Source: a virus. From it: a stretch of DNA of 37,675 nucleotides. The notes beneath the pieces were generated by a model that made no database searches, was not told where the DNA came from, and was given only the letters and a program-made list of their open reading frames with translations. Numbering within the stretch: the stretch's first letter is position 1; each line of letters starts with the position of its first letter. The DNA lies in IMG/VR virus record IMGVR_UViG_3300021579_000019, positions 1 through 37,675 of that record; one strand, given 5' to 3'. Shown in pieces: positions 6,195-37,675 of this stretch. The position numbers and the translations under genes are program-made.

Positions 6195-6548
6195 CTAAGG
6201 CAATTCGTCCCAGTCGTAGGCCTCAAACACATTGTAAGAATCATCTAAGTAATACCAGCGGTTCAGCACAGCATCCCACACAGGTCGCTCCAAAGGGTTC
6301 TCAAAGCTCTTTAGTTTCCATCCGCGAGCAATCGCTTCTTGCGCTGCGTCTGGGTCGGATTCCATAAGACCATTAAATAAAGAGCAAATAGGAATTATGT
6401 TTGAAGGCTGATTGCGTTTACTGGTTTTAGCGGATCCACCGGCCTGGCGATTAATTCTATGGTGCGGTGAAATAGCTTCATCGTCGCGGCCGCAATGTAA
6501 ACAGTATGGGTGGCGGATCAAATACTTAGCCCATTCGCGCGCATTCAT
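6195..6548 (-). CDS. HNH-like endonuclease, small
   Basis: The start is the ATG at 6548 within ATGA, overlapping the upstream stop; this gives 117 residues. It contains a CxxC pair (CLHCG), an HH-R segment and N-x-IPIC followed by N and ESD, the arrangement of a phage HNH/His-Me finger fold, although the last His is not obvious. It could be a homing endonuclease or a packaging-associated HNH protein. Its location far from the terminase genes favours the former. A 60-base AT-rich gap with a Shine-Dalgarno separates it from the next HNH gene. Confidence 0.72.
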   Translation of the reverse strand: MNAREWAKYLIRHPYCLHCGRDDEAISPHHRINRQAGGSAKTSKRNQPSNIIPICSLFNGLMESDPDAAQEAIARGWKLKSFENPLERPVWDAVLNRWYYLDDSYNVFEAYDWDELP

Positions 6549-6799
6549 TTGACGTGTTCCCTGTTCACGCAATCACGATTCCGGCAAGCACGGTCGCCAG
6601 GCAAAAACAACTCCCCATCCAGCAACGGATTATCGGCCTCATCGAAATCCCCATGCCACGGAATGCATTTCCCTAACGGCCCCGCAATCGTTTTAGCGGG
6701 TTTCGCGCAACAGCTGCGGCACAGCAACTCAACGTGCCGGTCACGGCGTTTAGCCATACGGATTGAATCCTCGTCGAAGCCGCAACGTTTACAAATCAC
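6545..6799 (-). CDS. Cys-rich zinc-binding protein, HNH-like
   Basis: The 84-residue product has three CxxC-type sites (CKRC, CRSCC, and C..DC near the end) and a C-terminal CVNREH segment that looks like the terminal part of a His-Me finger nuclease. The middle contains CIPWHGDFDEADNP, a pattern found in actinophage Zn-binding proteins of unknown role. The GTG at 6799 begins 15 bases after the 3' end of the tmRNA-like RNA, so the RNA may be cut from the 5' leader of this mRNA. It overlaps the next HNH-like gene by ATGA. Confidence 0.6.
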   Translation of the reverse strand: MICKRCGFDEDSIRMAKRRDRHVELLCRSCCAKPAKTIAGPLGKCIPWHGDFDEADNPLLDGELFLPGDRACRNRDCVNREHVK

Positions 6800-6814: not shown

Positions 6815-6892
6815 TGGAGATACCGGGATTCGCACCCGGCTCCGGTCTGGTCGCTTGCGCGGGTTCGCAGACCGTCGAAACTATTTATCCCC
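6815..6892 (-). ncRNA. tmRNA-like RNA reduced to the tRNA-like domain (78 nt)
   Basis: The minus strand reads GGGGATA at the 5' end and TATCTCC-A at the 3' end, a 7-bp acceptor stem with a G3-U70 pair and discriminator A, the alanine identity set used by tmRNA. Next is GTTTCGACGG, the hallmark tmRNA D-loop word. The T arm is CCGGG-TGCGAAT-CCCGG, preceded by GGAG where tmRNAs usually have GGAC. Between the two halves, where a normal tmRNA has about 300 nt with tag frame and pseudoknots, there is only a 6-bp stem (GGTCTG/CAGACC) closed by an 18-nt loop containing CGC-GCAA-GCG. No peptide tag is possible. It lies after a terminator and before a Zn-protein gene. A canonical tRNA does not fit, since no D stem or anticodon arm can be drawn. 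Confidence 0.75.
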
Positions 6893-6946
6893 AAAACCTC
6901 GGAGGCGAAGCAGCGAGGGCGTGTCTAAAACTTTAGCAAATAGAAA

Positions 6947-6976
6947 GAGGGCCACGCGAGCGAATACGTGACCCTC
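6947..6976 (-). terminator. Intrinsic terminator ending the ERF operon
   Basis: On the minus strand a 10-bp stem, GAGGGTCACG with CGTGGCCCTC (one G-U), has a 10-base loop and is followed by TTTCTATTT. It lies between the last small gene of the ERF operon (stop at 7027) and the tmRNA-like RNA, so that RNA would need its own promoter or read-through. Confidence 0.75.
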
Positions 6977-7026
6977 TAAACGCCTAAGCGTCTAATAGCG
7001 CAGCTACAGTGGTGCGCCTACTTATT

Positions 7027-36814: not shown

Positions 36815-37675
36815 TAGAAGTTTCCGTTCGCTACTTGAAAAGTTGGCAATCCGAGACGGTTGCGCCACAAATGAACAACCTGGTCGCGATCATCCAAAAC
36901 AAAATCAACAACATACTTGCCTGCAATGTGTTGCTGAAACAATTCATACTTCACAATCCAGTCGGGTCGCCTGTCTCCGGCGGGGCGCATATAGAGTTCA
37001 ATCTCCCAAAGCCCCGTGTTGTCCAACAGCCAAGCCTCAGTTTCGGTGCGGCATTCCTCGCCTCGACCAGACATGAAAATGATTCGGCTAAGGCTTTCAA
37101 GCACAAGATTGTCGATAAGGTCGCGCACAGGCTTGTTGGGGATGTCTGTGTGGACTTTATCGAACTCGTAAGGGCCGCGGCCGTTCATCAAAGCTACAGT
37201 GCCGTCAATGTCGCACAAAATAACGCTAGGAAGTTTTTGCTTATTGTTGTAAGGCTCAACGATTGGTGTTACGTTCCCCGTCCAGGGCTGTAGGCGGTTA
37301 GCCTGTTTCGCCATGTCGCGAATAACTTTCTCACCCACCGGTGCGGGCCGTAACGCGTCACGCTTAATGCATTCCTCAACATCAACAGCTAGGAAGTCGT
37401 CTTTCACTGTGAACCATGCGCCGAGTTCGTTGCTCAAGTTTTCAAGGGAACGAACCGTGGACTTGTTCAAGTTTGTGTTGTCAATAATGACTGTTTCGAC
37501 GTGTGGCTGAGTGAGTAGGAACCGAAGCAGGTTTAGGCGCGCTTCATGCAGCATGGCCGATGCTTCCTGGTTGCGGGGCTGCATACCGCCCCAAAGCATT
37601 TTCACTAGGTCGTCGTTGTTGATTCGTGCGACTGAGATTCCTAGGTTTTTGACGGCGTTGGTTGCCCAAGTGGAT
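36814..37675 (-). CDS. pnk: T4 Pnk-like polynucleotide 5'-kinase/3'-phosphatase (main part)
   Basis: Joined to 1-174, the gene encodes 301 residues, like T4 Pnk. The N-terminal kinase has the P-loop (in the left-end part) and VIIDNTNLNKST. The C-terminal phosphatase is a HAD domain with CDIDGTVALMNGRGPY (Asp170 and Asp172), FMSGR and a final LDDRDQVVHLWR. It removes 2',3'-cyclic phosphate and phosphorylates the 5'-OH of broken tRNA so that the ligase can seal it. The stop overlaps the rnl1 start. In T4 this pair defeats anticodon nucleases such as PrrC; the same role here is inference. The terminal overlap shows one synonymous difference within it. Confidence 0.95.
   Translation of the reverse strand, partial: STWATNAVKNLGISVARINNDDLVKMLWGGMQPRNQEASAMLHEARLNLLRFLLTQPHVETVIIDNTNLNKSTVRSLENLSNELGAWFTVKDDFLAVDVEECIKRDALRPAPVGEKVIRDMAKQANRLQPWTGNVTPIVEPYNNKQKLPSVILCDIDGTVALMNGRGPYEFDKVHTDIPNKPVRDLIDNLVLESLSRIIFMSGRGEECRTETEAWLLDNTGLWEIELYMRPAGDRRPDWIVKYELFQQHIAGKYVVDFVLDDRDQVVHLWRNRLGLPTFQVANGNF
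37546..37675. repeat. Right copy of the 130-bp terminal overlap
   Basis: Identical to bases 1-130 except at 37549 (C against T at 4). It shows that the assembled molecule closes on itself, or that the DNA is circularly permuted. The repeat ends in the middle of pnk with the frame intact. Confidence 0.9.

Follow-up and report, generated by a model that had tools for sequence, protein, structure and literature searches.

tmRNA is a bacterial RNA that frees stuck ribosomes, and trans-translation is nearly universal in bacteria. To our knowledge, viral interference with this process has been remarked on for a single phage gene. The stretch of DNA analyzed here (the window; 37,675 nucleotides, an IMG/VR virus record that we designate G000) carries a 78-nt element on its minus strand at positions 6815 to 6892, which raises two questions: is it a tmRNA without its mRNA-like domain, and if so, what would a phage do with it? 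Positions 1-130 and 37546-37675 of the window repeat each other (130 nt, 129/130 identity, one mismatch); thus, the record probably represents an entire genome whose terminal redundancy arose in assembly. Its genes include a large terminase, portal, endolysin, Erf, HNH, T4-type RNA ligase, and polynucleotide kinase, and we detected no tRNA gene, no SmpB, and no full tmRNA in the window. The nearest terminases of isolated phages, which infect several hosts, are less than 50% identical to that of the window.

The RNA at positions 6815 to 6892

We identify the element as a complete tmRNA tRNA-like domain (TLD) without an mRNA-like domain, running from G1 to discriminator A78, and refer to such TLD-only tmRNAs as mini-tmRNAs. 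All of its parts lie on the minus strand and are given in that direction. The 5' strand of the acceptor stem, GGGGATA (6886..6892), supplies G3 of a G3-U70 wobble, a pair read from the sequence and conserved in the family described below. The D region, AATAGTTTC (6877..6885), forms no D stem but keeps TTCGAC, carries A at 6882 (tRNA position 18) instead of the G found in other members, and is followed by GAC. The GA at 6875-6876 belongs to tandem G-A/A-G pairs and adjoins the 5' strand of the P2 helix, CGGTCTG (6868-6874). Next come CGAACC, a cap hairpin (CGC-GCAA-GCG, 6852..6861, supported by folding and by relatives), AC, and the P2 3' strand CAGACCG (6843-6849). P2 pairs covary, and the GA 3' of the helix (6841-6842) shares the covariation entry for P2. 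After one further G, the T arm CCGGG-TGCGAAT-CCCGG (6823..6839) has G at 6833 in place of U55, and the RNA closes with the acceptor 3' strand TATCTCC, which contains U70, and the discriminator A (6815..6822, read from the sequence). CCA is not encoded; CAA follows.

The preliminary description had pointed to the GGGGATA/TATCTCC acceptor stem, G3-U70, the discriminator A, the D-loop word, and a T arm after GGAG, all of which are present. It had inferred a tmRNA cut to its tRNA-like domain that keeps alanine identity and provides no tag, a reading now backed by homologues, covariation, and Rfam. Its 6-bp stem, however, is really a 7-bp P2 (C19-G50 to G25-C44) plus the G-A/A-G tandem. The 18 nt that it assigned to the loop are there, but they make up an internal loop and a 3-bp hairpin with a GCAA cap, replacing the mRNA-like domain. 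It overlooked that the D loop reads AG for GG and the T loop TGC for TTC.

Covariance models recover the RNA end to end. The Rfam tmRNA model RF00023, a check proposed earlier, scores it at 40.7 bits, with E 8.7e-15 when 701 bases are searched and E 1.1e-16 over the genome, in an alignment that spans model positions 1-374 with about 308 middle positions absent. Since the gathering score of RF00023 is 47, the RNA is missed by default cmscan, which did not list it; 46/50 mini-tmRNA family records exceed this cutoff. ARAGORN called no tRNA or tmRNA in the window, and a BLAST search of phages with the window RNA as query yielded nothing beyond chance matches. A second, independent model (R1), built from 12 homologues with the window excluded, gave 53.2 bits (E 2.4e-11 in 940 kb), compared to no more than about 32 bits for its false matches to tRNAs. 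RNAfold predicts -31.6 kcal/mol (z -2.2).

Like standard one-piece tmRNA (RF00023), the window RNA has an acceptor G3-U70, a D region (GG..TTCGAC in the standard form) without a D stem, P2 with a GAC/GGA junction, and a T arm. In contrast, standard tmRNA has pseudoknots, an mRNA-like domain, a resume codon, and a stop, and measures about 230-400 nt rather than 78 nt. Pseudoknots PK1-PK4 are absent from the window RNA, which has only 18 nt between the two P2 strands, and so is an mRNA-like domain with resume codon and stop (308 model positions missing). Ordinary tRNA-Ala features are lacking too, with no D stem and no anticodon arm.

We also considered whether the RNA might be one part of a split or permuted tmRNA, with the mRNA-like piece encoded at another place, as marine phages such as Melnitz have tmRNAs in two pieces (PMC9004378). 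The permuted/two-piece tmRNA model RF04321 matches only weakly (16.9 bits, E 0.32), and the gene order is standard: 5' acceptor, P2, T arm, and 3' acceptor follow linearly within 78 nt, which contradicts this assignment. The TLD lacks nothing, since this single piece supplies both strands of the acceptor stem. A second tmRNA piece had been named as a possible refutation; no other tmRNA or permuted-tmRNA match was found in this genome, which looks complete by its 130-nt terminal repeat, and we give the split reading next to no credence. We regard the TLD core as established, comprising the acceptor stem with G3-U70, the D region without a D stem, the T arm, and a P2 stub with a GAC/GGA junction. 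That the RNA is a phage-encoded tmRNA reduced to its TLD is secure; its function is inferred.

A phage-borne family under selection for structure

Homologues were sought by scanning viral contigs, and then bacterial genome contigs, for a D word separated by 31-60 nt from a T arm, followed by a fold test requiring all seven acceptor pairs without specifying pair identity. Among the matches listed, the folded RNA was found in 88/117 viral loci and 4/118 bacterial loci, the latter all on metagenome-assembled contigs, which indicates that the family is virus-borne. We collected at least 84 distinct members, almost all of them from phage contigs; among them are a natural 63-nt RNA (L092) and the RNAs of two phages (G015 and G005) whose terminases are related to that of the window; the structured copies in related phages that had been suggested as a check therefore exist. 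Isolated carriers are Streptomyces phages LuckySocke, GiJojo, BRock, pSt2308, Alone3, and Shaeky and Stenotrophomonas phage Jojan60. The GenBank records of isolated phages that we inspected have no RNA annotation at the mini-tmRNA site, where the RNA lies in or beside a tRNA array; in Shaeky, it occupies the gap between tRNA-Phe and tRNA-Leu. A tRNA lies within 500 nt of the mini-tmRNA in 21/76 loci, in some only 2-10 nt away. ARAGORN overlooks nearly all family RNAs. BLAST matches in phages Schmidt and PA_L9 and in a Bacteriophage sp. contig were rejected as members for want of a convincing fold, and Kumao was rejected as a carrier because it has a full, annotated 407-nt tmRNA.

In 77 aligned members, 96.8% of paired cells across four helices (acceptor, P2, cap hairpin, and T) can pair, compared to 69.4% in shuffles, and double-change cells number 458 versus 138. 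As a control, sliding the partner by 1-3 columns lowered pairing to about 50%. The alignment was fitted to the covariance model and hence leans toward it, but a model-free check agreed: in a set selected without pair constraint, G3-U70 and A73 are both kept in 65/65 distinct viral RNAs. In the aligned members, pair 3-70 is G-U in 77/77, whereas acceptor pairs 4-69 to 6-67 each show four or more pair types. In tmRNA, the third acceptor pair serves as the identity element for alanyl-tRNA synthetase (PMC3985003). Fixed G3-U70 and A73 beside variable neighboring pairs point to selection for alanylation, and selection acts on mini-tmRNA structure throughout this large phage family. The cap hairpin (helix 3 of the alignment) is 95% paired and covaries; its frequent sequence is AAAGCC-GCANGC-GGA, and the cap motif AAACCGCGCAAGCGAC is common to the window and loci L127, L137, L166, L207, and L226.

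No SmpB gene was found in any of 50 phage records of the family (0/50), while 10 bacterial controls were positive in the same search; host SmpB must therefore serve. The same 50 records contain no full tmRNA. Tags of two amino acids exist in Fermentibacterota tmRNA, and a hidden short tag was considered and rejected: GCN...stop frames occur in 24/65 family RNAs but are unalike, so that no conserved frame exists in the family, and the window RNA has none at all.

A -10-like hexamer lies within 30 nt upstream in 17/84 loci, compared to an expectation of 3.0 for randomly chosen positions in these loci, and in nine loci, from few lineages, it starts exactly 12 nt before G1. This fits transcription of the mini-tmRNA as a discrete RNA starting at its first base, for which no expression data exist for any member. 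A comparison of encoded CCA in mini-tmRNAs and neighboring tRNAs, as a test of tRNA-type maturation, gave no clear pattern. The base after A73 is C in 59/65 distinct viral members, most of them without encoded CCA, and is perhaps a processing signal.

Several observations lie at the edges of the family. Microbacterium phages Quenya (L349, 339-427) and Dismas (L356, 339-427) have unannotated, divergent relatives with the D word TTCGCC and a longer arm, followed after 4 and 50 nt, respectively, by a tRNA-Gln gene close to the end of the genome. These keep G3-U70, score 37.5 and 33.2 bits with R1, and are possibly a second class of mini-tmRNA. Salinibacter phage M31CR41-2 (L350, 337-429) has a tmRNA-like T arm and acceptor 3' strand, for which we found no well-matching 5' strand. 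A longer, 86-nt member is identical in viral contig L201 and in a 233-kb Phycisphaerales metagenome-assembled contig (L315, 6913-6998), which may be a prophage or a misbinned virus.

The A18/G55 elbow variant

D-loop and T-loop residues are near-invariant across the family, and the window RNA alone in the alignment departs from them at two positions, with A at the first G of the D-loop GG (column 22: G in 76, A in 1) and G at U55 of the T loop (column 108: T in 76, G in 1). By analogy to tRNA, these residues form the G18-psi55 contact between the D and T loops. Scanning for the A18 and G55 double change returned 16 loci with real members, representing eight distinct RNAs including the window's. 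Mixed states are almost absent: GG with G55 had no members in the scan, and AG with U55 had three, two of which have GG two bases earlier, leaving about one true case. Fisher's test on the counts 60, 1, 0, and 8 gives P about 1e-9, which overstates the evidence because the sequences are related and one or few events are possible.

These observations bear on whether the window RNA is a functionless relic, left either by decay of a tmRNA or by copying of host ssrA at an attachment site. Phages often integrate at host tmRNA genes (PMC11915505), and the window copy lacks the canonical G18 and U55. However, decay through loss of these residues was rejected since the double change recurs in 16 loci with mixed forms almost absent; a coupled swap shared with seven other distinct RNAs implies that the window copy has not decayed and argues for a functional variant. 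Also against a relic are covariation over 76 distinct sequences, intact acceptor strands and P2, and, among the matches listed, the presence of the fold in 88/117 viral compared to 4/118 bacterial contigs. The relic reading is already contradicted, and we consider it very improbable. We found no description for tmRNA of a swappable A18/G55 elbow or a conserved cap hairpin.

Possible roles during infection

The preliminary description offered three functional guesses: a decoy or inhibitor of ribosome rescue, a tag-less rescue RNA, and a noncoding alanine carrier. We favor the first because a TLD-only RNA like that of phage DS6A is reported to inhibit tmRNA in E. coli (PMC11915505 and PMC4131195, citing Mao et al. 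2009), independently of charging (PMC4131195). We therefore hypothesize, with a modest balance of confidence, that the window RNA is an alanylated decoy that binds host SmpB and blocks SsrA tagging. Charging, SmpB binding, and inhibition are all inferred, and there are no expression, charging, or binding data. Host AlaRS would charge the mini-tmRNA, host SmpB would bind its elbow, and, as with tmRNA, EF-Tu would carry the complex to stalled ribosomes, where the A site is empty. Lacking an mRNA-like domain, the RNA could supply neither tag nor stop codon and so would compete with host tmRNA, tying up SmpB, occupying stalled ribosomes, or both. The predicted outcome is dominant-negative inhibition of trans-translation during infection.

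Alanine identity is absolutely conserved even though the published inhibition does not need charging, which suggests that the charged form is delivered by EF-Tu to stalled ribosomes and that titration of SmpB cannot by itself account for the role of the RNA. Other points also count against the decoy. The window elbow is noncanonical at two contact residues, for which there are no SmpB-binding data; simple titration leaves the conserved cap hairpin unexplained; and the window has no -10 box immediately before the mini-tmRNA, while a terminator-like hairpin with a T-rich tail (6946..6977, minus strand, from a consensus scan) lies about 50 nt upstream. This hairpin is weak evidence alone (one found versus 1.3 in shuffles).

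Conserved alanine identity also keeps alive a rival in which the alanylated RNA and SmpB enter the stalled ribosome, take over the nascent chain, and displace the broken mRNA, after which peptidyl-tRNA hydrolase, ArfA/ArfB, or RQC frees the ribosome and phage proteins are spared the SsrA tag. Titration can do without charging (PMC4131195), yet the absolute conservation of G3-U70 and A73 implies that the RNA is charged; in addition, tag-less mitochondrial tmRNAs are kept together with SmpB and thought to help (PMC11915505). On the other hand, the RNA provides no stop codon, we recognize no gene for a release partner near it, and the TLD-only RNA tested in E. coli is reported to inhibit rather than rescue (PMC4131195, PMC11915505). 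We consider such tag-free rescue possible but rather unlikely.

Returning to the decoy, the TLD-only kind of tmRNA is already known from DS6A and organelles. The mycobacteriophage DS6A RNA (tmRNA Website tmID 11587; Mao et al. 2009) is likewise phage encoded, TLD only, and without a tag; it was reported as a single case, whereas the window RNA belongs to an A18/G55 elbow subgroup of a large family. Jakobid and oomycete mitochondrial tmRNAs (RF02544) and the ~65-bp Mallomonadaceae plastid tmRNA are also tag-less and kept in organelles (PMC11915505, PMC3985003). Those organellar forms are mostly permuted in mitochondria, with nucleus-encoded SmpB, whereas the phage RNA is one-piece and its host also has a full tmRNA. 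An artificial TLD with capped P2, the Thermus crystal construct (5' 25 nt and 3' 34 nt joined by UUCG; Bessho 2007), binds SmpB (PMC3985003). Though man-made, it is almost matched in size by the 63-nt L092; most natural members differ in having a longer P2, an internal loop, and the conserved cap hairpin. For a database of 97,179 tmRNA sequences, its authors listed no more than 79 from phages and a total of 9 "standard, no CDS" forms (PMC11915505).

The present analysis adds to this how large and widespread the family is, how exactly it conserves alanine identity, and that its members share a conserved cap hairpin and can undergo a coupled swap at the elbow. We think it reasonably likely, without being confident, that TLD-only tmRNAs are a widespread, selected phage weapon, with which many unrelated phages switch off host SsrA tagging through an alanylated decoy (or swap in tag-free rescue), using an RNA in which the cap hairpin is conserved and the A18/G55 elbow swappable. 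With at least 84 distinct sequences of invariant alanine identity, whether and why phages routinely disable or divert ribosome rescue becomes testable. If a natural RNA competes with tmRNA, it would provide a genetic tool and a lead for antibiotics against trans-translation.

Other genes of the window bear on a role outside ribosome rescue, in which the RNA would sequester AlaRS or EF-Tu, feed a nonribosomal transferase, or bait a host tRNA-cleaving defense. In addition to conserved alanine identity and the many members housed in tRNA arrays, this idea draws on an RNA-repair pair in the window, a T4-type RNA ligase (PF09511, 35726-36868) and a full polynucleotide kinase-phosphatase (PF25109, 36814-37605, continuing across the record ends to about 1-170). 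However, the conserved D-region word and GGA junction are features of the SmpB-binding domain of tmRNA that such roles do not need, and, of the mini-tmRNA records searched, only 8 contain an RNA ligase, with seven of these from phages that have BRock-like ligases. A general partnership with RNA ligase was rejected on that count, the eight records being mostly one Streptomyces-phage type, and we find a role outside rescue improbable.

As separate observations, the kinase motif GSGKST of the polynucleotide kinase-phosphatase is read across the record junction, the RNA-repair pair sits in a phage without tRNA genes, and BRock-like Streptomyces phages likewise encode an RNA ligase, close to their mini-tmRNA. 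Directly downstream of the window mini-tmRNA is an 84-aa Cys-rich ORF (6545..6799, minus strand) with a homologue in G015 (L347) that is 49% identical and about 240 nt downstream of its mini-tmRNA. A conserved gene cassette was considered and rejected, since homologues of the HNH-like and Cys-rich ORFs recur at several loci in differing order and orientation. The window ORF at 6195-6572 lies downstream of the mini-tmRNA on the same strand, and its homologue is divergent and 62-63 nt from the mini-tmRNA in L119, L127, L144, L166, L173, L206, L211, L225, and L226.
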